A stretch of 64,000 nucleotides of DNA from Citrobacter amalonaticus (GTDB lineage: Bacteria > Pseudomonadota > Gammaproteobacteria > Enterobacterales > Enterobacteriaceae), in NCBI RefSeq assembly GCF_018323885.1, contig NZ_AP024585.1, positions 1,860,001 through 1,924,000 of the forward strand, read 5' to 3'. Below are positions 2,814-19,090 of this stretch, one piece after another. A model generated the notes under the pieces. That model did no database searches and was not told the DNA's origin. It saw nothing but the letters and a program-made list of their open reading frames with translations. Both the position numbers and the translations under genes were made by a program. Within the stretch, counting starts at the first letter, position 1. Every line of letters begins with the position of its first letter.

Positions 2814-3457
2814 TCGTATTCTCTCCAGAAGAGAAGCGTCGTGGCGAAAGCAACGACCGTATTAAATAATTATCACACCTGAAACCTTCTTCCTTTCTGT
2901 CTCACAAAGACGTCCGGCCAGGTGCGTCCACAATTAATCGTTAAAAAAGCGAAAATGGATTGTTTCTGTGACGCGGTTATAATAATTATTTAATAATCCA
3001 TAAAAGGTTAGGGCCTGTTTTTAAATACGTTAAATAATTTCTTGTTAATAATTAACATTCTCTTCTCTTGTGTTTGTAGGATAATTCAGTATTTTCAGAA
3101 GATTCTTAAAATGTATTTTTGATAATTCCTAAGATTGATGCTGATATTTATTTACTTTCCTGGATGGCGATTAAATAATCCTGGTTTTTTTATGATTTAA
3201 CACGTTGTTGTGTTGATTTATTGTTTCTGTTTGTTTTCTGTATTGTTACACCATATGACTTTTTTGTTTTTTGTAACAAATTGATATTTATATAAATATG
3301 TTGGTTTTTGTTAATATTCCGATCTGGTGTGACGATAGAAATAAGAATAGTGATAGTTTTTTCCTATCATGATGTATTAGATTGAACAGTTATATCAATT
3401 GGCAGTTTTTTTTAAGTTAAGTGTATATTTGCGAATAGCGATACAAGGAGGGATAAC
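2814..3457. other. AT-rich non-coding region upstream of the regulator gene
   Basis: About 640 bases, very rich in A and T compared with flanking genes, with long T tracts and no supported reading frame. Such curved, AT-rich DNA in enterobacteria is typical of H-NS-silenced accessory islands. It presumably holds the promoter of the regulator at 3458. I see no clear single promoter or operator. Confidence 0.5.
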
Positions 3458-4042
3458 GTGGTTGTCGATGATAAAATTTCTCCACTGATCGCTCTTGCGC
3501 TGAGTGAAATAAAAAATTGGGCAGCGAGGCCATCAGATCGGAAACCATTCTGCTTTCTTCCTGCAATGTGGGTACAAACACGATGCTGTTGCGCCATAGT
3601 CGCTGAATATACATTAGTGAGTATTTCAGATAAACAAGATAATTTGTTCCTGAAACAACATATAAACTATAGTGATTCTATTAGTCTGATTATTGAAAAA
3701 CTTAAGGATGCGCAGGCTAACAGTGGGGAGCAGACGTGTGAGTTCTGCCAGTTTATGGCGAGGATGAATCGGGCGGATAAACACACGCTCAATGCGATTG
3801 TTTGTCTGGATACCTATGCTGACGCTTCGCAATATCTGGGGTTGAGCCAGAAGTCGATATACTCAAGGTTGTACAGTATTCTTGAACGTATTAACGTAAG
3901 GGATAAGCGGTTATTTTTTCGCTGGTATAAATATATGTTGATTCATTCAACAACATTCCGGCCTCAGGGCCTGAATATTGTCCTTTCTGTGGCGGATTTT
4001 CCACCAGGCTCAGAAGTGAATGAAACGATCAACGGGCACTGA
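3458..4042 (+). CDS. Putative LuxR/RcsA-type transcriptional regulator
   Basis: A 194-residue protein starting at GTG 3458 with a near-perfect AAGGAGG 6 bases upstream. The N-terminal part (with Cys clusters at TRCCCAIV and CEFCQFM) matches nothing I recognise. The C-terminal third, DASQYLGLSQKSIYSRLYSI (about residues 124-143) followed by LERINVRDKRLFFRWY, has the recognition-helix pattern of a LuxR-like HTH as in RcsA- and GadE-type regulators. It lies alone in AT-rich DNA beside the sphingolipid cluster and has its own terminator. I infer a local regulator; target and ligand are unknown. Confidence 0.6.
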   Translation: MVVDDKISPLIALALSEIKNWAARPSDRKPFCFLPAMWVQTRCCCAIVAEYTLVSISDKQDNLFLKQHINYSDSISLIIEKLKDAQANSGEQTCEFCQFMARMNRADKHTLNAIVCLDTYADASQYLGLSQKSIYSRLYSILERINVRDKRLFFRWYKYMLIHSTTFRPQGLNIVLSVADFPPGSEVNETINGH

Positions 4043-4349: not shown

Positions 4350-5474
4350 TCAGAGTTGTTTTTCGTACAGGCGATAGCGCTTATAGGCAACTCCGCCGAT
4401 GCGTTCCAGGATTGTGCGCATCCCGCTATTAGACTCCAGAATCCAGGACATCTTCAGCGCGTCAATATGGTGTCTGGCAAACGGGTCGCGTAATGCCTCT
4501 ATTAACAGCAGAGCCATGACCGGGCCAATGCGGCTGAACTGATATTCCTGACGAACGCCCATCAGAGGCACCCGCGCGGTGCGCACACCGCTCACTTTTA
4601 GTCGCCAGAGCAGTTTGGCCCAGCCGAAAGGCAACAGCCGACCGTTGAGATCGGCGATCGCCTCATTAATATTCGGCAGGCCAACGATAAAGGCGCAAGG
4701 CACCGAATCTATTTCAGCAATGTGAATCATATCGTCCGGAACAAGGAATTTGAGCTGCTCGCCCATGGAGGCGAATTCGTGTTCCGTGAAGGGGACAAAT
4801 CCCCAGTTGTGCTGCCATCCGGAGTTGAAAATTTCACGCAGAATCTGCATTTCTTCACTAAACCGCTTACGGTTGATGCTGCGAATGGTGACCTTTTGAC
4901 GCACCTGATCCATCAGTCGGACCAGCGACGGTGAGAAAGATAAATCTGTGCGCTGCATCCAATAGGCAAGCAGATCGATTCCTTTGGTGTATCCCAGTTG
5001 TTCCACGTGAGCGCCATAATAGGGTTTCCCGTGTGGCATCAGCGCGCAGGGCGGCGTCTCAAAGCCATCAACCAGCAGGCCGCTTTCCTGGTTAATGTTC
5101 AGGCTAAAAGGTCCGGTGATTTTTTGCGCCCCGGCGGATTTCAGCCATGATTCGGCGGCGGCAAACAGTGCGCTAAAGACCTCAGGGTCGTCGATGGCAT
5201 CGAGCATGCCAAAATGACCCGTGTCGTTGCCATACCGTTTGCGATGCAGGGTGTCAATTTGTGCCGTGATGCGTCCGACGACCCGTCCTGCTTTTTTAGC
5301 GATCCATGCCTGCCAACGAATATGTTCAGAACCCGGATTTTTCGCGGACAGATGCTCTGCACGTTCAAGGTGCAAGGGGTCGATCCAGCTGTCGTCGGCG
5401 CAATAAAGTGAAGAAGGGAAAGAGATAAACGTGTTGAGGTCATGTTTATTCATGACTTTTTGTATCTGAATCAT
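4350..5474 (-). CDS. yghO: YghO, GNAT-fold N-acyltransferase, candidate bacterial ceramide synthase
   Basis: A 374-residue protein of the YghO type. The N-terminal half carries WQAWIAKKAGRVVGRI and GHFGMLDAIDD, typical of GNAT-fold acyltransferases that act on lipids. The second half ends with ALKMSWILESNSGMRTILER, also a conserved signature of this group. In Caulobacter a protein of this class (bCerS) N-acylates the sphingoid base. E. coli YghO has been listed under vague names. The gene is divergent from a run encoding an acyl-AMP ligase, reductase, ACP and serine palmitoyltransferase, exactly the set needed for ceramide. That it acylates 3-ketosphinganine or sphinganine is inference from family and context. 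Confidence 0.8.
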   Translation of the reverse strand: MIQIQKVMNKHDLNTFISFPSSLYCADDSWIDPLHLERAEHLSAKNPGSEHIRWQAWIAKKAGRVVGRITAQIDTLHRKRYGNDTGHFGMLDAIDDPEVFSALFAAAESWLKSAGAQKITGPFSLNINQESGLLVDGFETPPCALMPHGKPYYGAHVEQLGYTKGIDLLAYWMQRTDLSFSPSLVRLMDQVRQKVTIRSINRKRFSEEMQILREIFNSGWQHNWGFVPFTEHEFASMGEQLKFLVPDDMIHIAEIDSVPCAFIVGLPNINEAIADLNGRLLPFGWAKLLWRLKVSGVRTARVPLMGVRQEYQFSRIGPVMALLLIEALRDPFARHHIDALKMSWILESNSGMRTILERIGGVAYKRYRLYEKQL

Positions 5475-5848
5475 AAACAGCCTTAAATAAAAAGTGCAGA
5501 AATAAACATAATTACACTGACTGCCAACTGGTCAGTCGAAACGAAATAAATTACTGAATGTTTCTTTCTCTCTTTTACCACTTAATGCGGTTGGTGATAA
5601 AACAGGACGGTAAAACATAAGGCTGGAGTCGGACAGGGCGTTTAATGATAACTCTCCCTTCGGAGAATGAAATAAAATATTTAGCTGGGTAATATCATAA
5701 TTATTGAAATTGAAATGCAGAAAAACATTTATTTTGCTGATGATCTTTTAGCCAAAAAAGAGATACTGTTTAATGACTATTTAATTTATATTATCACCCG
5801 CCGATTATTTGTTTTGTATATCCATCGATTTTAAATTCAAACATTTTC
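5475..5848. promoter_or_regulatory. Divergent promoter region between yghO and the synthesis operon
   Basis: 374 AT-rich bases that must drive yghO leftward and the acyl ligase-reductase-ACP-SPT operon rightward. ACTGAC (5516-5521) and GTCAGT (5531-5536) form an inverted repeat 42 bases upstream of yghO, a possible operator or 5'-UTR hairpin. I cannot assign promoter boxes with confidence. Confidence 0.5.
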
Positions 5849-7591
5849 ATGGTGTATATGTCCAATAGAATCTCAACTCATTCTCTTCCTATGCGTTATG
5901 CTGACTTTTCAACCCTGGTGGAAGCTCTGGACTATGCCGCTTTGGGAAATGCAGGAATGAATTTTTATGATCGACGCATTCAGCCTGAAGCGGTACTGGA
6001 ATACCGAGAGCTAAAAATGCGGGCTAAAGCCGGAGCCAGACGGTTGCTTTCATTGAATCTCAACAAGGGCGATCGCGTCGCGCTGATTGCGGAAACCAGC
6101 GTCGGTTTTGTCGAAGCCTTTTTTGCGTGTCAGTATGCGGGGTTGGTGGCGGTACCGCTGGCCATTCCTATGGGGGTTGGACAACGCGATTCTTATTCCG
6201 CGAAATTGCAGGGCCTGCTCGCCAGTTGTCAGCCTGCGGCTATCATCAGCAGTGACCAATGGTTGTCGCTGATAAATGTGGTCAACGAGCATGGTGCGGC
6301 AATCCGCATTCTCAGCAATGCGCAATTTAATGCGCTGCCGGAAAAGGATATTGAGTTGCCATTACCGTCGCCAGACGATATTGCTTACCTTCAGTACACC
6401 TCAGGCAGCACGCGTTTTCCTCGTGGCGTCATTATTACTCACCGTGAAGTTATGGCGAATCTGCATGTGATTAGCCATGATGGAATCAAATTGCGAGACA
6501 GTGACCGTTGCGTATCCTGGCTGCCTTTTTATCATGATATGGGGCTGGTGGGCTTTCTGCTTACGCCTGTGGCGACTCAGCTATCCGTTGACTATCTGCG
6601 CACCCAGGATTTTGCTATGCGCCCGCTGCAGTGGTTGAAATTAATCAGTCAGAACCGCTGCACCGTCTCCGTTGCGCCGCCTTTCGGTTACGATTTATGC
6701 CTGCGTCGTATCAATGACAACGAACTTGCCGGGTTGGATCTCTCCTGCTGGCGCGTAGCCGGAGTGGGGGCAGAACCCATTTCCGCCGGACAACTGAATC
6801 AGTTTGGCGAATGTTTCAAGCGCGCGGGATTTGACAGCAAAGCATTCATGCCGTGCTATGGTTTGGCTGAAAATGCGCTGGCGGTGAGCTTTTCTGATGA
6901 AGCCTCCGGCTCACAGGTGAGCGATGTCGATCGCGACGTACTCGAATGCCAGGGTAAAGCGGTTGCGCCGACGAAAAGTACCCGGGCGATATCTACCTTC
7001 GTGAATTGCGGTAAAGCGCTTCCCGGCCACCGCATTGAAATTCGTAACGAAGTTGGGAGCCCATTGCCTGAAAGAGACGTTGGTCATATCTGCATTTCCG
7101 GTCCGAGTCTGATGAGTGGTTATTTTCAGGATCCGGTTTCGCAGAAGGATATCCAGTCAACGGGATGGTTGGATACCGGGGATCTGGGCTATCTTCTGGA
7201 TGGCTACCTGTACGTGACGGGACGTATAAAAGATCTGATCATTATTCGCGGTCGGAATATCTGGCCACAGGATATTGAGTATATTGCAGAACAGGAACCG
7301 GAAATACATTCCGGCGATGCGATAGCATTTGTGACGTCTCAGGAACGGATTATTTTACAGATCCAGTGCCGGGTCAGTTGTGAAGAACGTCGGGCGCAGA
7401 TCGTCCATAGCCTGACCGCACGGGTACAAAGCGAGTTTGGGGTTTCTGTCAGCATCGAACTCTTGCCGCCGCACAGTATTCCACGGACATCATCCGGGAA
7501 ACCAGCGCGTGCGGAAGCAAAAAAACGCTACCTGAATCTCTTTGCTGAGTCGCTTAACTCACCGATCCCTATGCCGGGATACTTGCAATGA
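5849..7591 (+). CDS. Fatty acyl-AMP ligase (FAAL-like), loads fatty acid on the cluster ACP
   Basis: A 580-residue adenylate-forming enzyme. ATP-binding motif YTSGSTRFPRG lies at about 183-193, PFYHDMGLVG near 226, CYGLAEN near 338, TGDLGYL and GRIKDLIIIRGRNIWPQDIE near 450-470, and the catalytic lysine of the last motif in TSSGKPAR near 549. The HDMGLVG pattern and the insertion length fit fatty acyl-AMP ligases rather than acetyl-CoA synthetases. Caulobacter ceramide synthesis also needs an acyl-ACP/CoA synthetase. ATG 5858 is an alternative start. The stop overlaps the next start (ATGA), indicating coupling. Substrate chain length is not visible. Confidence 0.85.
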   Translation: MVYMSNRISTHSLPMRYADFSTLVEALDYAALGNAGMNFYDRRIQPEAVLEYRELKMRAKAGARRLLSLNLNKGDRVALIAETSVGFVEAFFACQYAGLVAVPLAIPMGVGQRDSYSAKLQGLLASCQPAAIISSDQWLSLINVVNEHGAAIRILSNAQFNALPEKDIELPLPSPDDIAYLQYTSGSTRFPRGVIITHREVMANLHVISHDGIKLRDSDRCVSWLPFYHDMGLVGFLLTPVATQLSVDYLRTQDFAMRPLQWLKLISQNRCTVSVAPPFGYDLCLRRINDNELAGLDLSCWRVAGVGAEPISAGQLNQFGECFKRAGFDSKAFMPCYGLAENALAVSFSDEASGSQVSDVDRDVLECQGKAVAPTKSTRAISTFVNCGKALPGHRIEIRNEVGSPLPERDVGHICISGPSLMSGYFQDPVSQKDIQSTGWLDTGDLGYLLDGYLYVTGRIKDLIIIRGRNIWPQDIEYIAEQEPEIHSGDAIAFVTSQERIILQIQCRVSCEERRAQIVHSLTARVQSEFGVSVSIELLPPHSIPRTSSGKPARAEAKKRYLNLFAESLNSPIPMPGYLQ

Positions 7592-8502
7592 GCATCACGG
7601 TTGCGGTGACAGGTGGAACCGGCTTTATCGGGAAGCATATTATTGATGACCTGCTGTCCCGCGGTTTTGCCGTTCGGGTGTTAACCCGAACGATTCGCCA
7701 CGACGTGCGCGATAATCTTGTCTGGATCAGAGGGGCGCTGGAAGACAGTGAGGCACTGGCGCAACTGGTCGCCGGGGCGGAACATGTCATCCACTGTGCA
7801 GGGCAGGTTCGCGGACACACAGAAGCGATCTTCACCCGCTGCAATGTTGAAGGCAGCCAACGGCTGATGCAGGCCGCGAAAGAGAGCGGCAGCTGTCGAC
7901 GCTTTCTGTTTATCTCGTCGCTTGCAGCACGTCACCCGGAACTCTCATGGTATGCAAATTCCAAGTATGTCGCAGAACAACGGCTAACGACGATGGCCGC
8001 AGAAATTACGCTGGGGATTTTTCGACCTACGGCAGTGTATGGACCCGGTGACAAAGAGTTAACACCGCTGTTTCGCGCGATGCTGCGCGGTTACCTTCCG
8101 CGTTTTGGCGCTGCCGAGGCCCGTTTGTCATTTTTGCACGTGAGCGATTTAGCGCAGGCTGTCAGTCAATGGCTCATGGCCGACCAGACGCCGGTTTATC
8201 TGTATGAACTCTGCGATGGTGTTGCCGGTGGCTACAACTGGCAACGCATTCAGGAAATTGCGGCCGCAGTGCGCAACGGACCGGTTCACACCGTAACCAT
8301 TCCGTTACCGTTACTCACATTGTTTGCCGACGCGAGTACGTTAATCAGTCGGTTTGCCGGAAAAGAACCGATGTTAACCCGGAGTAAAGTTTGTGAGTTA
8401 ATCCACTCTGACTGGTCGGCAAATAATAAATCTCTGTGCGAGAAAATAAATTGGTTTCCCCGGGTTAGCCTGGAATATGCGTTACGGCAGGGGTTATTTT
8501 AA
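7588..8502 (+). CDS. NAD(P)-dependent epimerase/dehydratase-like reductase, candidate ceramide reductase (CerR-like)
   Basis: A 304-residue extended short-chain dehydrogenase. The nucleotide-binding TGGTGFIG is at residues 8-15 and the catalytic pair Tyr122/Lys126 in WYANSKYVAE. In Caulobacter an epimerase-like enzyme (CerR) reduces the 3-keto group of the sphingoid lipid. Lying between the acyl ligase and the ACP/SPT genes with a 4-base start/stop overlap, this protein is the obvious counterpart. The direction and exact substrate (ketosphinganine or ketoceramide) are inference. Confidence 0.82.
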   Translation: MSITVAVTGGTGFIGKHIIDDLLSRGFAVRVLTRTIRHDVRDNLVWIRGALEDSEALAQLVAGAEHVIHCAGQVRGHTEAIFTRCNVEGSQRLMQAAKESGSCRRFLFISSLAARHPELSWYANSKYVAEQRLTTMAAEITLGIFRPTAVYGPGDKELTPLFRAMLRGYLPRFGAAEARLSFLHVSDLAQAVSQWLMADQTPVYLYELCDGVAGGYNWQRIQEIAAAVRNGPVHTVTIPLPLLTLFADASTLISRFAGKEPMLTRSKVCELIHSDWSANNKSLCEKINWFPRVSLEYALRQGLF

Positions 8503-8519
8503 TTATTTATATTACAGGT

Positions 8520-8792
8520 ATGTTATTTTCTATGTTAAATCATGAAGAAGTAATGGATTACACCCTTGAGTGTTTACAGGGTATGGTCGAAAGCGGCGTA
8601 GATATCCATCCTGACAGCGATCTGGTTAATGATCTTGGGCTGGAATCGATTAAAGTTATGGATTTATTAATGTTGCTGGAAGATAAATTCGACATTTCCA
8701 TCCCTATTAATATTTTGCTGGATGTCAGAACCCCGGCGCAATTAATGGAAGCGTTAATCCCTTATCTGGAGAGTATCAATGAGTCTCTATGA
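8520..8792 (+). CDS. Acyl carrier protein of the sphingolipid cluster
   Basis: A 90-residue ACP. The phosphopantetheine site is Ser43 in DLGLESIKVMDLL (LES replaces the commoner DSL), preceded by helix I (EEVMDYTLECLQGMV) and followed by DKFDISIP of helix III. It is distinct from the housekeeping AcpP. It overlaps the start of the SPT gene by 14 bases, so the two are co-translated and probably interact. Start is ATG 8520; ATG 8532 is possible but lacks a better ribosome site. Confidence 0.88.
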   Translation: MLFSMLNHEEVMDYTLECLQGMVESGVDIHPDSDLVNDLGLESIKVMDLLMLLEDKFDISIPINILLDVRTPAQLMEALIPYLESINESL

Positions 8793-9951
8793 TAAATTTT
8801 CGCGCCTGGCCTGCGAGCGAGAACAATTTAGCATGGCAGGAATTAACCCATTTGGCACCTGTATCGATGAGGTGTTTTCCGCAACGGAAGGACGGATTGG
8901 CAACCAAAAAATTATTCTGGCAGGTACGAATAACTATCTGGGGCTCACCTTTAATCCACAGGCGATTGCCGAGGGGCAGGCCGCTTTAGCCAGTCAGGGG
9001 ACAGGCACGACCGGTTCACGAATGGCGAATGGCAGCTATGGACCACATTTAGCCTTAGAAAAGGAGATTGCCGAGTTTTTTGAGCGGCCATCAGCCATCG
9101 TATTCTCCACAGGCTATACCGCGAATTTGGGGATAATCAGCACGCTTGCCAGTCACAATGCCGTGGTATTGCTGGATGCTGACAGCCACGCCAGCATTTA
9201 TGATGCCTGCGCGTTAGGTGGAGCTGAAATTATCCGCTTTCGCCATAATGACGCGAAAGATCTCGAGCGGCGCATGATGCGCCTTGGTGAGCGCGCCAAA
9301 GACGCGATCATCATTGTCGAAGGCATTTACAGCATGCTGGGCGACATTGCGCCACTGGTCGATATTGTCGAGATCAAAAAACGGTTGGGTGGCTTTTTAA
9401 TTGTCGATGAAGCCCATTCCTTCGGCGTGATGGGCGCGAAGGGACGGGGACTGGCGGAAGCCGCCGGTGTGGAGCAGGATGTCGATATTATTGTGGGAAC
9501 CTTCAGTAAGAGCCTGGCTTCTATTGGTGGTTTTGCCGTCGGCGATCAGGGCATGGATGTCCTGCGTTACGCCAGTCGTCCCTACATTTTTACCGCATCC
9601 CCATCGCCATCGAGCATTGCAACCGTCCGCTCTGCGTTGAAAACGATCGCAACACAACCGGAGCTGCGCCAAAAGCTGTGGGATAACGCAGCGCGACTGT
9701 ATGAAGGGCTTGAGAAACTGGGCTATGAGCTGAGTTCGCACATCAGCCCTGTGGTGCCGGTGATTATTGGCGCAAAAGAAGAGGGACTGCGTATCTGGCG
9801 AGAACTGATCGCCGCTGGCGTTTATGTGAATCTCATTTTGCCACCGGCTGCCCCCGCCGGGATTACGTTGCTGCGTTGCAGTGTTAATGCCGCGCATACC
9901 TACGAGCAGATTGACGCGATTATTCAGGCATTTGCACAGCTGAAAAAATAA
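8779..9951 (+). CDS. Serine palmitoyltransferase-like alpha-oxoamine synthase
   Basis: A 390-residue PLP enzyme of the alpha-oxoamine synthase family. Key positions: His137 (DADSHASIYD) stacking on PLP, Asp210 and His213 in DEAHSFGVMG, and the Schiff-base Lys244 in GTFSKSLASIGG. KBL, BioF, HemA and SPT share this fold. Linkage to a dedicated ACP, an acyl ligase, a reductase and a bCerS-like acyltransferase argues for SPT, which condenses L-serine with acyl-ACP or acyl-CoA to 3-ketosphinganine. GGAG lies 7 bases before ATG 8779. Activity on serine versus another amino acid is not proved by sequence. Confidence 0.87.
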   Translation: MSLYDKFSRLACEREQFSMAGINPFGTCIDEVFSATEGRIGNQKIILAGTNNYLGLTFNPQAIAEGQAALASQGTGTTGSRMANGSYGPHLALEKEIAEFFERPSAIVFSTGYTANLGIISTLASHNAVVLLDADSHASIYDACALGGAEIIRFRHNDAKDLERRMMRLGERAKDAIIIVEGIYSMLGDIAPLVDIVEIKKRLGGFLIVDEAHSFGVMGAKGRGLAEAAGVEQDVDIIVGTFSKSLASIGGFAVGDQGMDVLRYASRPYIFTASPSPSSIATVRSALKTIATQPELRQKLWDNAARLYEGLEKLGYELSSHISPVVPVIIGAKEEGLRIWRELIAAGVYVNLILPPAAPAGITLLRCSVNAAHTYEQIDAIIQAFAQLKK

Positions 9952-9960
9952 TCTGCTCTG

Positions 9961-9995
9961 CGCAGCAGATATTGTTCCTGAGAATATCTGCTGCG
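9961..9995. terminator. 13-bp perfect inverted repeat between convergent operons
   Basis: CGCAGCAGATATT (9961-9973) and AATATCTGCTGCG (9983-9995) with a 9-base loop. It follows the SPT stop by 10 bases and precedes the end of the oppositely oriented permease operon by 45. Lacking a T-run, it may work as a bidirectional transcription barrier or mRNA-stabilising stem. Confidence 0.55.
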
Positions 9996-10040
9996 ATGTC
10001 TTACTCCTGTCCATCACGCCGTTTGATGAATGTTGCGATA

Positions 10041-11108
10041 TCAGGGTTGGCGATCGAATCGATAAACCAGTATTAATGCCACCGCCAGGAGCAATATTGG
10101 CGGTGCCAGCGTTGTCATTTGCACGTTCAGGGAATAGAGCAGTCCCAGGTTGACGATGATCTGGTCACAGACGTAAGTAAGTAGACCAACGATCACACCG
10201 ACGGCCAGTCGACTCCCGAGTCCGGGAGCGCGGGGGGTGCTAAAGGTGAAAGGGATCGCCAGTAAAATCATCGCCAGGATTAAAAGCGGATGTCCCAGCT
10301 TTAGCCACAACGCCAGCGTAAATTCGAGACTGGGTTGACCTGTACTCTTCAGGTAGGAAATATAATGGCTGAGTTGTTTAACTGAAAAACTGCTGCTGGG
10401 CAGGGTGAGTTCCTCAAGACTCATGTCCGCGAACAAAGATGACCACTCGACGTTCTCTTTCGTCTCGGTTGTCTCCTTACCGTTGGCCCACGCTTTTTGA
10501 TTGACGCCCTCAAGCCGCCAGACGCCGTTATCTGAAATGGTGGCGGTCCGCGCATAGATATACCGTTGCAGAGAGTTGTCCGCCCGGTAGTAAAAGAGCT
10601 CAATGCCTTCTGGTTGGCGATGCGCATCCAGCGATTTTACCGTCACAAACACATTGCCGCGCCGGGCCCACAGAATGTTTCCTGCCGTATCGTGATTGCT
10701 GTAGCGCGTTTTAATCTGCAACGCCTGTTGTTGCATCGGCGAGGCAATCCATTCGTCAATGACGCCGAGGGCAACGATTAGCATCAGTCCCGCGCTTAGC
10801 GTCACTATGGCGATTTTGAAAATTGAGCATCCCGTGGTGCGTATGGCGGTTAATTCCCCGCTTTTCGACAACTGTCCCAATCCGATAATGCCACCGAGCA
10901 AAGCGATAAACGGACCAAGATCGATAAGGGTCCTCGGCAATGTCATCAACACGACCATCACCGCCTGCGTCCAGCGGTATCCGTCTGGACTCACATCATC
11001 GAGTTCGCCGATCAGATTAAAGGTGGTAAACAGGGGAAGCAGTAACCCTGCAGCCGCCGCAAATCCTAAAAAGAGATTGCGTATGATATAGCGACTGAAG
11101 ATTTTCAT
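10041..11108 (-). CDS. LptG-like YjgP/YjgQ family permease, candidate sphingolipid exporter subunit
   Basis: A 355-residue membrane protein with the LptF/LptG plan: N-terminal ISRYIIRNLF-like membrane anchor (KIFSRYIIRNLFLGF), further hydrophobic segments near residues 60 and 100, a periplasmic beta-rich middle, then three C-terminal membrane helices. The coupling-helix region shows GLGQLSKSGELTAIRTTGCS, typical of this family. These proteins pair with the ATPase LptB to push lipopolysaccharide into the periplasmic bridge. The housekeeping lptFG genes lie elsewhere in enterobacteria, so this is an extra copy. Its start overlaps the stop of the LptF-like gene (ATGA). Cargo is probably a sphingolipid by context. 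Confidence 0.82.
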   Translation of the reverse strand: MKIFSRYIIRNLFLGFAAAAGLLLPLFTTFNLIGELDDVSPDGYRWTQAVMVVLMTLPRTLIDLGPFIALLGGIIGLGQLSKSGELTAIRTTGCSIFKIAIVTLSAGLMLIVALGVIDEWIASPMQQQALQIKTRYSNHDTAGNILWARRGNVFVTVKSLDAHRQPEGIELFYYRADNSLQRYIYARTATISDNGVWRLEGVNQKAWANGKETTETKENVEWSSLFADMSLEELTLPSSSFSVKQLSHYISYLKSTGQPSLEFTLALWLKLGHPLLILAMILLAIPFTFSTPRAPGLGSRLAVGVIVGLLTYVCDQIIVNLGLLYSLNVQMTTLAPPILLLAVALILVYRFDRQP

Positions 11109-12175
11109 TTATACGTTTTCCATCGCAGCGTGCCGTCGCGAATCAACAGAATCACCAGACCTGACAGCATGAGCAGGGGGACCAGCCATAGTCCCGGCGT
11201 GACGGGCAACGCACCGTTGGCAACCAGCGTACGGCATATATTACCGCCATAAAAAATGATGACGAATAAGAGCGTGAGCGGGAGCAGTGTGGAAAACCGT
11301 CCCTGGCGCGGCCTGACGCGGCTTAACGGGACTGCCAGCAGCCCCATGAACAACGCGCAGACTCCGCGACTTTCCCGCCATTGCAGTTCAGCGGTATCCG
11401 CCGGTGCAGAGGAACGAGCGAGCGTCTGTATGGATTTCGCCTTGCGTTTGACCTCGTCATTCTGGTCGAACGGTTTCATATTCAGTTTGAGATTGCGGAA
11501 AATTTGCTCGTTATCATCACTGCCCTGATGATCCAGGACATAGCCGGTACCGGAGTGCAACATCACTGAGGGCGTCGTGGAGGAGGGATCAACAACGTCC
11601 ACGCTGTTGGCCCTGAAGATACTGGTTTTACTGGCAGAGGCGGTGTAAATCAGCGCATCATTCAAATGAGCTGCGTCGGGGTCAATCTGACGGGCGAGGA
11701 TCATCCGTCCATTGTTGTTGACGTTAAACTTTCTTGCCTGTAGGTGACGGACATCCAGCTCTGACTGCGACTGTTGTTCTAACTGATAAATTTGCGCGTA
11801 AGCCCAGGGTCTGCCGTACAGAGACAGGAGCAACACCAGAATACTCAATGGAATGGCGAGGAACATCACGGCGCGATAAAGACGTGAAGGCGTGGCACCA
11901 GCGGCGGCTATCGCCGTCATTTCCGAATCGGTATACATCTGGCCAAGGGTGACGCCGACGGAAACATACAGACCGACCGGAAGCAACATCTCCAGCGCAA
12001 TCAAAACTTTATAGAAGACAACATTCAGCACAACGCCGAGGGCTAATGTCCCGTTGGCCGCTTCGGTCAGGTAGCGCTGTGCGCAATAGCAGGCGAAAAT
12101 AAAAATCAGAAAGCCCACAAGTGTCACCACCAGTCGACAAATGCCGGTCATGATGTAGTGTTCAATTAATTTCAT
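11105..12175 (-). CDS. LptF-like YjgP/YjgQ family permease, partner of the LptG-like protein
   Basis: A 356-residue protein with the same architecture as its neighbour: membrane segments in the first 110 residues, the conserved coupling region QMYTDSEMTAIAAAGATPSR (about residues 80-99), a periplasmic jellyroll domain, and three membrane helices at the C-terminus. ATG 12175 overlaps the TGA of the YtfJ-like gene by one base; a GTG three bases earlier is possible. No private LptB-like ATPase is encoded nearby, so the pair may recruit the housekeeping LptB. Export of a sphingolipid is inference from the cluster. Confidence 0.82.
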   Translation of the reverse strand: MKLIEHYIMTGICRLVVTLVGFLIFIFACYCAQRYLTEAANGTLALGVVLNVVFYKVLIALEMLLPVGLYVSVGVTLGQMYTDSEMTAIAAAGATPSRLYRAVMFLAIPLSILVLLLSLYGRPWAYAQIYQLEQQSQSELDVRHLQARKFNVNNNGRMILARQIDPDAAHLNDALIYTASASKTSIFRANSVDVVDPSSTTPSVMLHSGTGYVLDHQGSDDNEQIFRNLKLNMKPFDQNDEVKRKAKSIQTLARSSAPADTAELQWRESRGVCALFMGLLAVPLSRVRPRQGRFSTLLPLTLLFVIIFYGGNICRTLVANGALPVTPGLWLVPLLMLSGLVILLIRDGTLRWKTYK

Positions 12176-12747
12176 CACAGGCCTGGCGATTCGTTAACCA
12201 TCTTTTGTACCATCGCGATGACCTGATGCACCTCTTTCGGCGTCAGATCACCATCCTTAGCCCACGAGACGCGGCCCTCTTTATCCAGCACCAGAATGGT
12301 TGAACTCATCTCATTGAGTTGCCAGGTTTTGCGCCCCAGTCCGCTGCTGTCGATGATAAATTGTGCCCACGGGTAGCGACGTTTGTTTTTTTCTATCTTG
12401 CCAAGGACAAAGAAACCAGAACCAAAGATCACATCATCGGTATTCACGATGGTGGTCGGTTGAAAGCGGTCCAGAGGGAAATGGGCGGCCTTAACGGCTT
12501 TTATCAACATTGCGTTTTTCTTTTTTGCCGATTTTCGCCCGGCAATATACTGAACAATGCGCACCTTTCCTGCCAGTTCACCGCTATTCCAGGTTCGGTA
12601 GCTAAACGTATCGCGATTATCCAGCAGTAATTCGCCGCGATCCGTAATGACAATGGGCTTAACCGGCTGGCCACCGACAAAGTTATGTGCTGACGCCAGC
12701 CATGGCGAGAGCAGAAGTGAAATCATCAATAATCGACGTATCAGCAT
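12175..12747 (-). CDS. YtfJ-family periplasmic protein
   Basis: A 190-residue paralogue of E. coli YtfJ with the same blocks: ITDRGELLLDN, SYRTWNSGELAGKVR, IAGRKSAKKKNA, TTIVNTDDVIFGSG, and VLDKEGRVSWAKDGDLTPKEV. The N-terminus (MLIRRLLMISLLLSPWLASA) is a cleavable signal peptide, so it acts in the periplasm. The fold resembles thioredoxin/peroxiredoxin proteins but no CxxC is present. ATG 12747 is chosen for the AAAGGA ribosome site. It is co-transcribed with the two permeases. The function of YtfJ itself is unknown; here a role in lipid passage or assembly is only suggested by position. Confidence 0.85.
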   Translation of the reverse strand: MLIRRLLMISLLLSPWLASAHNFVGGQPVKPIVITDRGELLLDNRDTFSYRTWNSGELAGKVRIVQYIAGRKSAKKKNAMLIKAVKAAHFPLDRFQPTTIVNTDDVIFGSGFFVLGKIEKNKRRYPWAQFIIDSSGLGRKTWQLNEMSSTILVLDKEGRVSWAKDGDLTPKEVHQVIAMVQKMVNESPGL

Positions 12748-12799
12748 CGCAAATCCTTTATTTCGCTGAGTCGGGATGGAGAATCCTGTGTCGGGCAAT

Positions 12800-13624
12800 C
12801 TACAGAGGATAACGGGCGAGCCATTGCTCTATACGGCCACGAATATCGCCATTCAGTGCGCAGGGCTCGTCGTACGGTGTTCGCATTTCCATTGCATCGG
12901 CCACCATCTCATCATGCCGGTCTCCCATCAGACCGTTAATAGCAGCCAGAAAGCGGGAGATGGCGCGAGCATCGTGATTGTCAGGTTCGAGAGAGCGTAA
13001 CGTATCGAAATAAGAAACCTGCTGACTGATGATTTTTCGCATAGTGTGGAATTCACGTCCTGTCAGTTGCGGTTGGGCCAGCAGGTCCCGTAGCGTGCGC
13101 ATTTGCGCCTGACAATAGGTGGTAAATCCGTTGGCCGTTTCTGGCTGACTGTGGTGCAAGGAATACTGGACAACCCACCAGACGGGAAGGCTCAGGAAAA
13201 GACGCAAGCGCTTTCCATAGGTGGCAATAATCGTTTTATTTCCGTTACGAAACCCGTCCTGGAAGTGGCCGAGAAAAACGGTGGTTTTGCTAAATAAACG
13301 GCCTGCCTGGTGGTTCTTGCGATAGAGACGCAGCGCGAAACGTAAATGCTTATAACGCGCGCGAATGTATTTGTACTGCATCCGTTCGTTATCTGACAGC
13401 TCGCCGCCGCGTAATTGTTTCAGTACCAAATGCAGTAAGTCCGTTCGGGTAAAACCCTCCTCCCAAAACTGCAGGCACAAATCATAACAGCGACGGATAT
13501 TGTCCTCGGTGCAGTAGGTATGAATATGTTCCGGTAGAGTGGCATGGCGATCAACGATGTCGTCTTCTTCCACCGCTGCAAAGAGGCGTTGAAGAACGTC
13601 TGGCGAGAATTTTTCGTGTGTCAT
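12800..13624 (-). CDS. CHAD-like alpha-helical histidine-rich protein
   Basis: A 274-residue, strongly helical basic protein. RYKHLRFALRLYRKNH, FHTMRKIISQQVSYFDTL and ISRFLAAINGLMGDRHDEM recall the repeats of CHAD domains (conserved His and Arg/Lys on paired helices), which bind polyphosphate and similar anions. There is no signal peptide, although one short hydrophobic patch (LSLPVWWVVQY) lies midway. Its ATG overlaps the flippase stop (ATGA), so it is translated from the same mRNA. Assignment to CHAD is by eye and moderate; alternatively it is a new helical family tied to this cluster. Confidence 0.6.
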   Translation of the reverse strand: MTHEKFSPDVLQRLFAAVEEDDIVDRHATLPEHIHTYCTEDNIRRCYDLCLQFWEEGFTRTDLLHLVLKQLRGGELSDNERMQYKYIRARYKHLRFALRLYRKNHQAGRLFSKTTVFLGHFQDGFRNGNKTIIATYGKRLRLFLSLPVWWVVQYSLHHSQPETANGFTTYCQAQMRTLRDLLAQPQLTGREFHTMRKIISQQVSYFDTLRSLEPDNHDARAISRFLAAINGLMGDRHDEMVADAMEMRTPYDEPCALNGDIRGRIEQWLARYPL

Positions 13625-14958
13625 GAGTGAGTCTCTTTGCCTGCGGTAAATGGCAAGCGCTGACGATGGCGATAGGCGTGTAATGTCGGGATCAGGGAAA
13701 GCAGCACATCCAGGCATTGTCCGGCGAAATAAGCAAATGCCGCGCCGATTACGCCAAAGAGATGCGACAGCCCTGGTAGCAGGACTATGTAGGCGATAGA
13801 AGCCAGGGTCTGTGCGGTCAGAAAAGCCCGCTGTTTGCCGGACATAAGCAGCAGCGATTCCTGAGGAAACCCCAACATTGAGACGATAATTGCACCAAGC
13901 ATAATCTGGATGAGGTCATACGCCTGGAGGTATTTGACGCCAAAAACCAGCGAAATAAGCGGCTTACCAACAATCACCACCGCAAGTGCTACGACGATTC
14001 CAATCCCGCCGGCCAGCAACGCGGATTTCATTCCCAGTTGCCACGGCTTTTTGCTGCGCGGATCTAAGCGCATCACTTCGGGATAAAAGCTCTTTGCAAG
14101 CAGCTGCGCTGGCGTTCCTGTCGCATCAAAGAAAGTCATCGCAATTTTAAACAGCCCGGCGGCGGCAGGGCCGAGAACGACACCCACCAATACCGTGCTG
14201 CAGGAGTTTCTCGCAGACCAGATCGTGTGGGCAAAGTTGGTTGCCCAGACAAAATTCCATGCGCCTTCAAGGCGGCGCGCCGACTCAAACAGTCGTGGGC
14301 GTAGCGCACCGTGAATATTCCGGCTACGCAGTTCGCGCGCGGCAAACCACCAGTACATTGTGCCGCCGACCAGGCTGGAGGCGTACCAGGTGATCACAAA
14401 ACCGGCAAACCCAAAATCGCCGAAATACGCGATAACGCTGCCCAGCGCGCGCAGGAAAGGTTTGGTGGCCTGCTGTACGGCAATCAAATCAAAACGGTTT
14501 ACCGCCCGCAAAATCCCCGTCGGGGTTGATGAGGCCATTGATGGGATCAGCGTGCAGTACAGCATTGCCAGCCAAAAGCTGTCTGCATTGAGGCCTAATG
14601 AATGCGAAAGAAACGGCAGTAACCCCATCCCGCAAAGGATCGCCGCAGCACCGCTGGCGATATCCAGGCTAAATGAAAAAGAGATCACATCGCGGAACTG
14701 CTGCTGATTATTATTTTCCAGCGCGGGTGTGCCGTACTGAACGACCAGTTGCCAGGTCTGGAATTTGGCAAAATCGCTAATGGCTTTGGTGTACGACTGA
14801 ACAATGACCAGCACGCCGAACATCGCAGGCGTCATCCCTTTACCGGCGCAGGAAAGCGCCAGTAACCCCAGCAGGGCGCTCACCACATTGCTGGAGCCTA
14901 AATAGGCGCTGTTACGAATGATGGTGCGAAACGCGCCATCAGCAAACCACTTTTTCAT
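13621..14958 (-). CDS. yghQ: YghQ, Wzx/MATE-like lipid flippase
   Basis: A 445-residue polytopic protein with about 12-14 hydrophobic segments and the polysaccharide-export (Wzx/MOP) pattern: N-terminal YLGSSNVVSALLGLLAL and FGVLVIVQSYTKAISDF, an amphipathic loop with ARNSCSTVLVGVVLGPAAAG (about residues 248-267) as in O-antigen flippases, and a C-terminal second bundle. E. coli K-12 YghQ is annotated as a polysaccharide exporter homologue, and gene order with yghR, yghS, yghT and pitB is the same here. In this cluster its cargo could be a sphingolipid or a glycosylated/phosphorylated derivative. No glycosyltransferase is nearby. Confidence 0.85.
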   Translation of the reverse strand: MKKWFADGAFRTIIRNSAYLGSSNVVSALLGLLALSCAGKGMTPAMFGVLVIVQSYTKAISDFAKFQTWQLVVQYGTPALENNNQQQFRDVISFSFSLDIASGAAAILCGMGLLPFLSHSLGLNADSFWLAMLYCTLIPSMASSTPTGILRAVNRFDLIAVQQATKPFLRALGSVIAYFGDFGFAGFVITWYASSLVGGTMYWWFAARELRSRNIHGALRPRLFESARRLEGAWNFVWATNFAHTIWSARNSCSTVLVGVVLGPAAAGLFKIAMTFFDATGTPAQLLAKSFYPEVMRLDPRSKKPWQLGMKSALLAGGIGIVVALAVVIVGKPLISLVFGVKYLQAYDLIQIMLGAIIVSMLGFPQESLLLMSGKQRAFLTAQTLASIAYIVLLPGLSHLFGVIGAAFAYFAGQCLDVLLSLIPTLHAYRHRQRLPFTAGKETHS

Positions 14959-15068
14959 CGGATAAAAACCCGCCAGACCTGTTAATGATCACTCAGCAGG
15001 AGCAAACCCGCCCAGCATAAAATCTCAGGCCAGTGACGCGTACGTGCCTGAGTTCAGAGATTCTTTTG

Positions 15069-15860
15069 CTATGAGTGCTCCCCGATTTCGGGCAGGACGC
15101 TGGCGTGTTGTGATAAAACGCGCCTGCGCTGAGAATCCCGGGCCGTAACGGAGGCGGCTGCCAGCGCTTTTTCCAGCACCTCGCGGTAGGGCGCTCTGGA
15201 ATCCAGATCGAGAATTCTCGAGCCGTTGTAGGTGAGCTTCATCATGACGTCGATTTTGTCGCGCAACTCGTTGTAGTCGTGGTCGGGCTTACGGGAAAAT
15301 GCGGTACCAATATCGATATCAAGACGAATGATGAGTTCAGGACGATATAACGCCATTTCCTGATACAGGCGGGATTCGCGCCTGGCCATGCGGGTTTTCA
15401 CCCAGCCCGTTGCGCGTTCGACGCCAATCCCCGGTCCGTCATAATGAAAACCGGAAATTTCGGCCTGAGGGTAGCGATCGCTAATCACCAGCACGCCGCT
15501 TTGCACCAGTCGCCGGACCTTGCGTAAGTTAGCCATCCGGCGTAGCGAGAACCCGTACATAATTAACGCCGCCCAAAGTGCGGGAGCCCGGGTACTCATG
15601 CTCTGCGTTTTTGACGACTTGGTCGCCAGTCGTCGTTCAAGCCATGTCCCGATAAGCGGCAGACGTTTGATTTTGTCGCCATCTTCTCCGGAAACAAGTC
15701 CCAGATAGCGGCGTTCAGTTACCCACATTTTCTGCAGGTTTTTTACCAAATCCGCCGTCAGCGTGGATTTACCGGTGCCATCACAGCCCACCACGGCAAT
15801 CAGTCCCGGAATATATTCCGGTAATGGCCCGTTCTGGGGGCTTAAGTTCTCTGTGTCCAT
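15069..15860 (-). CDS. yghR: YghR, thymidylate-kinase-like P-loop protein
   Basis: A 263-residue cytoplasmic NTPase. Walker A GCDGTGKST lies at residues 25-33, DRYPQAE at 128-134 corresponds to the DR(Y/F) motif of thymidylate kinases, and RLDIDIGTAFSRKPDHDY near 185-202 contains the family-wide RKPDH. Its two neighbours YghS and YghT share all these motifs, so the three are paralogues. In context they probably phosphorylate a lipid head group, possibly the ceramide or a precursor, but no substrate has been shown. It ends 110 bases after the yghQ start and follows yghS by 11 bases. Confidence 0.85.
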   Translation of the reverse strand: MDTENLSPQNGPLPEYIPGLIAVVGCDGTGKSTLTADLVKNLQKMWVTERRYLGLVSGEDGDKIKRLPLIGTWLERRLATKSSKTQSMSTRAPALWAALIMYGFSLRRMANLRKVRRLVQSGVLVISDRYPQAEISGFHYDGPGIGVERATGWVKTRMARRESRLYQEMALYRPELIIRLDIDIGTAFSRKPDHDYNELRDKIDVMMKLTYNGSRILDLDSRAPYREVLEKALAAASVTARDSQRRRVLSQHASVLPEIGEHS

Positions 15861-15871
15861 GTCGTTCCGTC

Positions 15872-16615
15872 TTAAAAAGGACTCGCAAATCCGATCCGGT
15901 GATCGCGAAGAGAGGTCTGAATTGAGCGTAATGACTCAGTAAGAATTTTATCCGCCGGCTCCCGACCGTTCAGTTCGAGGATTGGTGCTCCGTTGAACGT
16001 CAGATGCGGCGTGACCGCGATCTTCTCGTGGAGCACGGCAAGGGGATGATCAGGCTTACGTGAGAAGGCGGTTTCTTCATCGATATCCAGCCGGATCAAC
16101 AGCAGAGGCCGCCAGGAGGCCATCCACTGGTACAACTGGAGTTCACGGGCTTTCAGGAGTCGTACCCACCGATTACCGCCAGCCGTTTTGGCCAACTGCG
16201 GCCCGTCGAAGCGAAAACCGGGCACTTCCGCCTGGGGATAACGATCGACGATGAACAGCGTGCCTTGCCGACTCTGAATTAGCATGCTGCGGAATTTGTA
16301 CGCTCTCCAGCAAGAGAGCAGGAAGATCACCAGCGCCGTGATGTTTCCTGGCGGCGCAGAAGGACTCTGGTGTACGTGTGCCGCTTTTTTTCGCAGATAA
16401 CGCCCCAACAACGCCCCGACAACAGGCAAATGTTCAATCCATTCACCAATACGACCAGAGGACTGCCCGAGATAAAGCTGTTTTGTTGGCAACTGTAGGG
16501 CGAGATGCGACGTCAGGCTGGCTGCCAGGGTTGATTTACCTGAACCATCGCAACCGACTATAGCAATCACCCGTGCGAAAGGGGGAGGTATAGTGGGAAT
16601 AGTATATTGACTCAC
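15872..16615 (-). CDS. yghS: YghS, thymidylate-kinase-like P-loop protein
   Basis: A 247-residue paralogue of YghR and YghT. Walker A is GCDGSGKST (about residues 22-30). DRYPQAEVPGFRFDGPQL and AFSRKPDHPLAVLHEKI repeat the motifs of YghR, and LTFNGAPILELNGREP is the shared C-terminal block. YghS and YghR are closer to each other in these blocks than to YghT, suggesting local duplication. It is the first gene of the leftward run yghS-yghR-(yghQ) and is divergent from yghT. Likely a small-molecule or lipid kinase. Confidence 0.85.
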   Translation of the reverse strand: MSQYTIPTIPPPFARVIAIVGCDGSGKSTLAASLTSHLALQLPTKQLYLGQSSGRIGEWIEHLPVVGALLGRYLRKKAAHVHQSPSAPPGNITALVIFLLSCWRAYKFRSMLIQSRQGTLFIVDRYPQAEVPGFRFDGPQLAKTAGGNRWVRLLKARELQLYQWMASWRPLLLIRLDIDEETAFSRKPDHPLAVLHEKIAVTPHLTFNGAPILELNGREPADKILTESLRSIQTSLRDHRIGFASPF

Positions 16616-16786
16616 GAAAGATCCAGTTTAAATAATTAATTGAGGGCGGCGGTTGTGTGCCAAGAATATCTGTTCAATAAAGTTGTGACAATGGGTAATT
16701 GTCGTTTTAGTATTAACAATTATATCCGGAAGGAGAGTCGGATAATAAATTATTCATGGTGGGTATTTTTGTTTAAGGGTGTATTT

Positions 16787-17521
16787 ATGCAATCAATTAA
16801 ACCTCCGCTAATAGCCGTTATTGGCAGCGATGGTTCGGGGAAAACAACGGTCTGCGAACATCTTGTTATCTGTTTGCAGAAATATGGCCCGACTGAAAAA
16901 GTTCATCTGGGTAAACAGGCAGGAAATGTAGGGCGCGCCGTGGTTAAATTACCGTTAATGGGTAATTCATTAGGTAACGTTATCGAACGTAATAAAGTTA
17001 AAACTGCAAAAAAATTACCTGGAGTGGTACCTGCATTAGTGATTATGTTTTTCGTTGCGCGTCGGTTATTGCGGTTTCGCCATATGCTGACGTGTCGTCG
17101 GCAGGGCCTCATTGTGTTAGCCGATCGCTACCCTCAGATACAAATCCCCGGCGCTTATGATGGTACCGTATTTCCCGTCAATACAGAGGGGAGTCGCTTC
17201 GTGAGTTGGTTGGCCGAACAAGAACGCTCGGCGTTTCACTGGATGGCCAGCCATAAGCCGGATTTAGTGATAAAACTGAATGTTGATCTCGACGTTGCTT
17301 GTGTACGTAAACCCGATCACCGTAGAGAAGCGCTGGCAAGAAAAATCGCGATAACACCACAACTGACCTTTGGCGGCGCGCCTCTGGTTGATATCGATGC
17401 TAATCAGCCGCTGGATGAAGTGCTGGCGGATGCGGAAAAAGCGATAACCGCGTTTATGGCTGCTCGTGGCTATCATCACACTGACGGTAATCAGCCCGCC
17501 GTTAGCTTTCATCCTCAGTAA
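16787..17521 (+). CDS. yghT: YghT, thymidylate-kinase-like P-loop protein
   Basis: A 244-residue paralogue with Walker [10 protein letters not shown] (about residues 13-21), [28 protein letters not shown] and [19 protein letters not shown] 16787 is preferred because it gives the family's usual length and follows TAAGGG; an open frame extends further upstream without motifs. It is transcribed opposite to yghS from a 171-base AT-rich gap. As with YghR/YghS, a lipid kinase role is inferred from the cluster. Confidence 0.84.
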
Positions 17522-17590: not shown

Positions 17591-19090
17591 TTAGATAAGT
17601 AGCAGGGAAGCCCAATACAGAAACCCGGACAGCAAAATCGCCGCTGGTAACGTGAATACCCAGGCCATCGCGATGCTGGTGACGGTTTTCCGCTGTAATC
17701 CGCCGCCGTCGACGATCATCGTTCCTGCGACGGCGGAAGAGAGCACATGCGTAGTAGAAACCGGCATCCCGATATAGCTGGCAAGACCAATGGAGATCGC
17801 CGCCGTGATCTGTGCGGACATTCCCTGGGCATAGGTCATCCCTTTTTTGCCAATCTTCTCGCCAATTGTGGTGGCCACGCGCCGCCAACCGATCATTGTT
17901 CCCATGCCCAACGCCAGCGCGACCGCCATGATTATCCAGATCGGCGCATATTCAATGGTGCTCAGCATGTCGGTTTTCAGTTTTTTCAACAGATGCACGT
18001 CGCTACGACTGATATCCGCTAGTTTTGCCACTTTATCTGCCGTATCGGAGATACACAGCATGATGCGTCGTAACTGACCGCGTTGCGGCACGCTTAATGT
18101 GTCGTAACTCTCCAGGTTTGCTGGTAACAGTGTTTTCACGCGACCCAGGGCATCCATCGTATTCGCCGGATGGCAATGAAATTCGGTGGTTGAGGAGGAA
18201 TTCGCTGTCGGTACAGTAAGCGGTTGAGCCTTATCCACTACCTGTTTTATCACGTCAGGGTGCTGCTGAAAGTAGATTTCAAGATTGCTGACAGCATCAC
18301 GCGTGCGGGTGATTTCGTAGCCTGAAGCGCTCATGTTCACCACGAAACCGGCAGGCGCAATCCCCACCAGTACCAGCATCACCAGGCCGATCCCTTTCTG
18401 ACCATCGTTCGCGCCGTGAGAGAAGGCCACGCCCGCCGCTGAGGAGATGAGCGAAATACGCGTCCAGAATGGGGGTTTCTTTTTACCGCCTTTCTTTTTC
18501 CGTTCTTCAGGAAGACGGTGGATGCGATCGCGTTTTTTAGTGCCGCTCCAGTAGCGGCGTAGCAGGAAGATCAGGCCGCCTGCGATCACCATTCCGACGA
18601 CGGGAGACGCAATCAACGACGCAAAGATATTGACCACCGCCGGGATGTTTAACGCATCGACTACCGAAGTCCCGTTCATCAGTGCGTTGGTGAGCCCAAT
18701 CCCAATAATTGCGCCTATTAGGGTATGAGAACTGGAGGCCGGTAACCCGAAATACCAGGTTCCAAGGTTCCAGATAATCGCCGCCAGTAACAGGGAAAAA
18801 ATCATCGCGAGGCCACGTGACGACCCCATATTGAGCAGTAAATCCGTGGGTAGCATATGCACAATGGCATAGGCAACGCTGAGTCCGCCCAGCAGGACGC
18901 CAAAGAAGTTGAAAACCGCCGCCATCATCACTGCCAGATGGGGTTGCATGGCTCGGGTATAAATGACGGTCGCGACCGCATTGGCGGTGTCGTGAAATCC
19001 GTTTATGGCTTCGTAAAACAGGACAAAGACCAGCGCAAGTAAAAGCATCAAGCCGGTATATAAATCCAGACCAGAAAATAAATGTAGCAT
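17591..19090 (-). CDS. pitB: PitB, low-affinity metal-phosphate:H+ symporter
   Basis: A 499-residue inner-membrane transporter of the Pit family at the exact family length. The signatures [20 protein letters not shown] (about residues 25-44), [31 protein letters not shown] and [16 protein letters not shown] are the duplicated PD001131 motifs that bind metal phosphate. [14 protein letters not shown] in the central loop and the neighbouring yghT point to PitB rather than PitA. PitB takes up phosphate as neutral metal complexes. It seems monocistronic. Confidence 0.92.

Follow-up and report, generated by a model that had tools for sequence, protein, structure and literature searches.

Caulobacter crescentus carries, in the region CC_1168–CC_1152, five ceramide genes together with a second LptF, a second LptG and a potential flippase (PMC11324152). 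Genes of the same kinds occur in the stretch of Citrobacter amalonaticus DNA analysed here (64,000 nucleotides, NZ_AP024585.1, positions 1,860,001 to 1,924,000), hereafter the window, in whose numbering coordinates are given. The five ceramide genes of the window form one end of a 13-gene module (window 4350–17521), which probably serves the synthesis of a sphingolipid, the building of its head group and its export. The two loci differ in the rest of their content. Caulobacter has its own LptC2 and six genes for ceramide phosphoglycerate (CPG) and CPG2, including the DAGK-type ceramide kinase CpgB (CC_1160), whereas the window has three P-loop kinases, a CHAD-like protein and a YtfJ-family protein instead. 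The authors of PMC11324152 state that they did not follow up transport.

In Escherichia coli BL21(DE3), which is another species, the same five ceramide genes stand in the same order and orientation (ECD_02850–02854; PMC9386255). Its Spt is 86% identical to that of the window, and the whole 13-gene block is present. The 2022 study assigned exactly these five genes, yghO included, and its sections on the set do not discuss the other eight. Three E. coli orthologs were tested there, namely AasR, AcpR and the serine palmitoyltransferase (SPT). The AcpR of BL21(DE3) carries phosphopantetheine, and AasR can charge its own AcpR. With acylated AcpR and labelled serine, the E. coli SPT gave a product migrating like 3-oxo-sphinganine, and it worked far better with palmitoyl-AcpR from Caulobacter than with palmitoyl-CoA. 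An enterobacterial ceramide gene set, that of E. coli B, is already in print, and the finding is not new as such.

Two plasmid loci also resemble the window. In Sphingomonas parapaucimobilis, cerR, acp, spt, lptF, lptG and a yghO homolog lie in one region, with weak matches (25%) for acp and lptG. Its SPT matches the solved SPT 2jg2 with 907 bits. This locus differs in that aasR is outside the stretch read and no kinase or CHAD-like match is found. The Pseudomonas veronii plasmid (L059, 4053–19781) has the ceramide genes, LptF/G, YghR/S/T and a weak CHAD-like relative (30%). It differs in carrying a DAGK_cat kinase, an MsbA-like ABC exporter, an Asp/Asn hydroxylase and a fourth YghR-family kinase, and in having no match to YtfJ or YghQ; it looks intermediate between two head-group types. 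The window locus is a head-group variant of a known system. Its ceramide half is ordinary, and its head-group and export set is conserved and, within the literature searched, unstudied in enterobacteria.

The five ceramide genes

All five genes are full-length open frames. yghO (cerS, bCerS or aca; 4350–5474, minus strand) encodes an N-acyltransferase of tandem GNAT fold. On the plus strand, aasR (5849–7591) encodes a fatty acyl-AMP ligase or acyl-acyl carrier protein (ACP) synthetase, cerR (7588–8502) a ketoreductase of the short-chain dehydrogenase/reductase (SDR) or epimerase type, acpR (8520–8792) a private ACP, and spt (8779–9951) the SPT. The start codon of acpR is uncertain, its orthologs being 82–87 residues long. 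The Rhodobacterial five-gene dihydroceramide set, aasR, acpR, spt, cerR and cerS, is thus all present. An initial annotation, made from the sequence alone, had proposed a complete Caulobacter-type ceramide set of five adjacent genes. The frames, the NCBIfam, Pfam and fold evidence and the assignment of the same set in BL21(DE3) support that interpretation, although eight further conserved genes were missed.

The same annotation described ATGA and 14-base overlaps and took the genes to be translated together. The overlaps are there, 4 bases between aasR and cerR (7588–7591) and 14 bases between acpR and spt (8779–8792). Joint translation is possible for aasR, cerR, acpR and spt, but not for yghO, which lies on the opposite strand and diverges from the other four across a 374-base, AT-rich promoter region (5475–5848). 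Because yghO is divergent, only aasR-cerR-acpR-spt can form one operon. At the other end, a terminator-like stem on both strands (9951–9970) lies between two convergent blocks.

Spt scores 608.7 bits against the curated serine palmitoyltransferase model NF047599 (cut-off 500), the only cut-off passed among the 11 families that it matches. It stays below those for BioF (338 against 426), KBL (300 against 460), ALAS (221 against 339) and the CqsA type (224 against 428), and also below those of two other SPT models (438 against 670 and 348 against 640). It matches PDB 2x8u with 392 bits. The two next-best NF047599 matches of the genome, 314 and 242 bits, are under the SPT cut-off and located elsewhere; they are probably KBL and BioF. 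The lysine predicted to bind pyridoxal phosphate (PLP), Lys244, corresponds in the alignment to position 265 of the Sphingomonas SPT chain 2jg2, and all 41 aligned homologs, some of which are not SPTs, have Lys there. H137, D210, H213 and R366 likewise align with 2jg2. We take these residues to be the stacking His (H137), the Asp and His contacts (D210 and H213), the PLP lysine (K244) and the carboxylate Arg (R366).

AasR scores 854 bits against NF006624 (cut-off 600) and 1042 bits against PDB 3pbk, entitled "Fatty Acyl-Adenylate Ligase". CerR, predicted as an NAD-dependent epimerase-like reductase, matches PF01370 with 91 bits, keeps the GGTGFIG glycines and YxxxK in 25 of 25 sequences, and is 36% identical to the gene adjoining acp-spt in S. 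parapaucimobilis. AcpR matches PF00550 with 47 bits, and its Ser43 is Ser in 25 of 25. YghO has no significant match in Pfam, NCBIfam or PDB sequences by its own sequence. Its AlphaFold2 model (predicted local distance difference test score 79, with residues 123–149 below 50) finds tandem GNAT proteins as its top Foldseek matches (2wpx, E 3.3e-13, TM 0.59), and two of three distant homologs scanned pass the Pfam Acetyltransf_1 cut-off. The predicted fold and the assignment of E. coli yghO (aca/yghO) in PMC9386255 support YghO as the probable bacterial ceramide synthase.

Eight further genes

After spt, and convergent with it, come LptG2, LptF2, YtfJ, a 274-residue protein, YghQ, YghR and YghS, and then the divergent YghT. 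LptG2 (10041–11108, minus strand; TIGR04408, 279 bits, cut-off 240) and LptF2 (11105–12178, minus strand; TIGR04407, 295.6 bits, cut-off 230) are 27% and 26% identical to their counterparts in the other pair of the genome. The genome thus holds two LptF/LptG pairs, one LptC and one LptB over the cut-off (398.6 bits), the next ATP-binding cassette (ABC) protein reaching 172.8 bits. A Glu in the LptB-coupling region, which presumably has a role in coupling to LptB, is kept in both LptF2 and LptG2. We infer that LptF2-LptG2 may share the single LptB of the cell.

YghR (15069–15860, minus strand), YghS (15872–16615, minus strand) and YghT (16787–17521, plus strand) are paralogous P-loop kinases of the thymidylate-kinase superfamily. 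They have in common a P-loop, a DR motif and the motif R-K-x-D-H, also written RK(P)DH. Compared with the YghR of the window, YghS proteins are 38–42% and YghT proteins 27–33% identical. YghR reaches 25.1 bits for Thymidylate_kin, below the cut-off of 27. Against the curated dTMP kinase model the three score 30.2, 22.5 and 28.3 bits, where 83.25 is needed. The PGAP label "dTMP kinase" for YghS and YghT is unsupported, the NCBIfam cut-off not being reached. LpxK is a precedent for a P-loop kinase that acts on a lipid. The ceramide kinase CpgB of Caulobacter, with its GGDG motif and conserved sphingosine kinase regions (PMC10331486), belongs to a different family from YghR/S/T. In the literature naming these genes, mostly open-access main texts, no link of this kinase set to sphingolipids was found.

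YghQ (13621–14958, minus strand) is a MOP-type flippase of the polysaccharide or lipid kind (PF13440, 37 bits, cut-off 23). The YtfJ-family protein (12175–12798, minus strand; TIGR01626, 222 bits, cut-off 151) appears by eye to have an N-terminal signal, its start is uncertain, and it has no match among PDB sequences. The 274-residue protein (12800–13624, minus strand) is all-helical, and a fold comparison suggests that it is CHAD-like. The CHAD model is not among the 12 families listed by a Pfam search with 16 members (E up to 10), and a profile search of the PDB gave no match.

Distribution, selection and expression

In a tblastn search of the 39 loci from the Spt scan described below and of the enterotoxigenic E. 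coli locus L001, all 13 genes were matched in each of 20 named Enterobacterales loci uncut by a contig end. These belong to Escherichia, Pseudocitrobacter, Pluralibacter, Serratia, Mangrovibacter, Pantoea, Citrobacter and Rosenbergiella, and show three gene orders. A further locus, L009, is cut by a contig end and has ten of the 13. A PitB-like phosphate transporter gene (window 17591–19090) is the neighbour of the cluster in the window, Escherichia, Pseudocitrobacter and Citrobacter youngae. In Pluralibacter it is found on the opposite side of the cluster, and the remaining named Enterobacterales loci have no match to it.

Among 198 genomes of the family, the same 16 have Spt (above 600 bits), YghO (above 600 bits), the CHAD-like protein and the YghR family, with exactly three YghR-family matches in each. 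Spt-search matches of 223 bits or less, from BioF/KBL kin, and YghO matches of 37 and 41 bits were dropped before this count. By Spt alone, five of eight genomes of the genus pass the SPT cut-off. A scan of 84,980 species genomes for Spt gave at least 80 pattern matches and at least 39 loci. Some strains hold second copies of parts, as seen in two genomes of the family with a second Spt (G115, 668 bits) and a second YghO (G109, 660 bits). The whole set is also found on a conjugative IncFIB plasmid of Klebsiella michiganensis (L058, 548–15710), where a small DgkA-type kinase adjoins yghO and a glycosyltransferase lies beyond lptG. An E. coli plasmid record of 354 kb (NZ_MG591698.1, H83) has yghO at 9846–10967. 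Further YghO-like proteins, with 24–34% identity (plasmid matches H125–H142), come from Streptomyces, Rubrobacter, Bacteroidota, Chloroflexota, rhizobia and Vescimonas.

The yghO-spt stretch of one E. coli strain finds a match of some extent in 4541 of 5426 complete E. coli genomes, and in 4023 a single place covers 80% or more of the stretch. The intactness of the genes was viewed separately, in nine annotated loci: the source of the query (L001), seven picked among genomes with the full stretch (L050–L056) and BL21(DE3) (L069). Only the ligase of L001, an enterotoxigenic isolate, is flagged as broken; an internal-stop flag stands at 7110–8801 of that locus, with its neighbours unflagged. None of the 13 genes is flagged in BL21(DE3). 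In K-12 MG1655 (L057, 12001–15366), IS5 lies between remnants of yghO and yghQ, and the eight genes in between are missing. The own 5′ end of yghO no longer matches, and yghQ lacks its C-terminus. The loss is read as an IS5-linked deletion, and K-12 lacks the pathway because these eight genes are missing at the IS5 gap.

Between BL21(DE3) and NC101 the ratio of nonsynonymous to synonymous substitution (dN/dS) is 0.03–0.20 for 12 genes, indicating purifying selection on them, and the ACP is unchanged. Ratios against the window are rough, as synonymous sites are near saturation for most genes, and spt and lptG give no value.

The yghO-aasR gap has a GC content of 31.6%, against 52.7% for the window, and is poorly conserved between genera. 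An alignment of 12 loci shows no conserved operator in it, and a promoter scan gave a single sigma-70-like match, fewer than the 2.5 that chance alone would give. In K-12, SlyA overproduction raises yghS 3.1-fold, and two data sets list this gene with H-NS binding (PMC5797941). Together with the AT-rich gap, these data suggest silencing, and expression is probably switched off in ordinary culture. Beyond yghO, a 194-residue frame (3458–4042) adjoins an AT-rich stretch (28.6% GC at 3001–3500). It has no Pfam or NCBIfam match and is possibly a regulator.

These data bear on the idea that the locus is cryptic, horizontally acquired and rarely or never expressed, its lipid having no part in the life of most strains. 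The counts in the family and genus, the plasmid copies in Klebsiella and Pseudomonas, the AT-rich control region with the SlyA and H-NS response of yghS, the broken ligase and the genes lost in K-12 all favour it. The low dN/dS within E. coli, the presence of most of the ceramide part in 4023 genomes and the retention of all 13 genes through rearrangement speak against it, and we regard it as unlikely.

Candidate products and their meaning

In the reading that we prefer, a sphingolipid made and exported by the 13-gene module, AasR would charge AcpR with a fatty acid and Spt would condense acyl-AcpR with serine to 3-oxo-sphinganine, as in the published biochemistry of the E. coli orthologs (PMC9386255). 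By orthology with Caulobacter, YghO would add the second acyl chain and CerR would reduce the ketone to dihydroceramide. The gene content further suggests that one or more of YghR, YghS and YghT may phosphorylate the ceramide or its head group, that YghQ may flip the lipid across the inner membrane, and that LptF2-LptG2, borrowing the single LptB, may move it towards the outer membrane. The CHAD-like protein would bind a phosphate-rich head group or polyphosphate, and YtfJ would act in the periplasm.

Several points weigh against this reading. No lipid has been seen from this organism. BL21(DE3) with empty vectors served as a negative control in PMC9386255, though the strain carries the whole cluster; its own reductase and acyltransferase may, according to the authors, act on the product once the first step is provided. 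Since the 13 genes are linked, their co-occurrence in 16 genomes does not represent independent gains. Spt has Leu354 at the equivalent of Arg378 of the Sphingomonas SPT, a point tempered by the presence of Arg there in just one of 41 homologs. A second LptC (LptC2) was not found, the single Pfam LptC match of the genome lying far from the window at C1:554348. YghR/S/T match thymidylate kinases weakly, and may not need to act on lipids.

The kinases could instead supply nucleotides or activated sugars, the end product being a glycosylated ceramide flipped by YghQ. YghQ does match polysaccharide flippases, the kinases are thymidylate-kinase-like, and a glycosyltransferase lies near the Klebsiella plasmid copy. 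However, the 13 conserved genes include neither a glycosyltransferase nor a nucleotidyltransferase, and the joint retention of three paralogous kinases would be strange if they served nucleotide supply. If the CHAD-like partner is real, it points to phosphate. Such a product seems improbable to us.

A bolder proposal is that most E. coli and many other enterobacterial carriers of the cluster can build a second anionic outer-membrane lipid, an oligophosphate (multiply phosphorylated) ceramide. The three thymidylate-kinase-like enzymes would add phosphates in turn and the CHAD-like protein would bind the chain. YghQ would flip the lipid, and LptF2-LptG2 would borrow LptB and carry it along the lipopolysaccharide (LPS) route. 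It would have escaped notice because K-12, with IS5 at the gap, is missing the core of the cluster and what remains is silenced in culture. This proposal is quite doubtful at present.

The head group of Caulobacter can be compared through other families. The class in this taxonomy may include Betaproteobacteria. In a sample of 369 class genomes, which has no other genome of the window's family among those listed and so speaks about other families, YghO is found in 24 (E 1e-30). High-scoring YghR/S/T kinases occur only in the window's own genome; four others have kinase matches of 63–71 bits in frames of 490–548 residues, and none of these is among the 24 with YghO. The surroundings of yghO were taken for 20 of the 23 other YghO genomes, the three weakest being left out and some stretches cut by contig ends. 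LptF and LptG share the stretch with yghO in 16 of these 20 loci. YghR/S/T, the CHAD-like protein and YtfJ are near yghO in none of them (E 1e-4; some contig-cut). A nucleotidyltransferase like that beside yghO in Roseomonas and Stutzerimonas is near yghO in 17 of 20, the exceptions being L102, L104 and L119. It is regarded as CpgD-like on the ground that ccna_01210, a CPG2 gene of Caulobacter, codes for a nucleotidyltransferase (PMC12275187).

On the basis of annotation and, for three of them, Pfam, six Roseomonas genes were treated as the set of the phosphoglycerate type. None of the six has a match in the window or the enterobacterial loci searched (E 1e-3). The Roseomonas proteins taken as CpgB-type kinase, CpgD-type nucleotidyltransferase and CDP-alcohol transferase likewise have no match there, while the Stutzerimonas loci L027 and L029 each match three of the six. 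In a YghO tree of 51 rows, 26 kinase-type loci fall on one side of one branch (support 100/99), with P. veronii at their base, and they adjoin Stutzerimonas, labelled as the other type. Six rows are unlabelled, and the tree has long branches, one gene and a midpoint root, so that it gives no direction of change. One exchange of the head-group set would be the simplest story. A ceramide phosphoglycerate as in Caulobacter would share the ceramide genes and the second LptF/LptG, but the gene content just described, in the window, the enterobacterial loci and the loci of other families, speaks against a CPG head group in this locus. The one DAGK_cat protein of the genome is also far from the cluster. 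We consider this product very improbable.

Use of glycine, alanine or cysteate by the synthase, in a pathway other than a sphingolipid one, is hardly credible: the fold is common to BioF, KBL and cysteate acyltransferase, but the SPT cut-off alone is passed and, in extracts, the ortholog from E. coli B takes L-serine as its substrate (PMC9386255). Chemistry of the KBL/BioF kind, which the initial annotation had named as fatal to its proposal, is thereby disfavoured, the BioF, KBL, ALAS and CqsA cut-offs not being reached.

BL21(DE3), a harmless laboratory strain in possession of the whole cluster, is a place where the preferred reading of a 13-gene sphingolipid module can be tested. If that reading is true, it would provide testable roles for yghO, yghQ, yghR, yghS and yghT, which K-12 keeps whole or as remnants. 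It would also suggest that ceramide genes can swap their head-group set in one piece. Sphingolipid synthesis and export would then be patchy but widespread in Escherichia, Citrobacter, Serratia and their relatives, an ability that the use of K-12 as the model has hidden.

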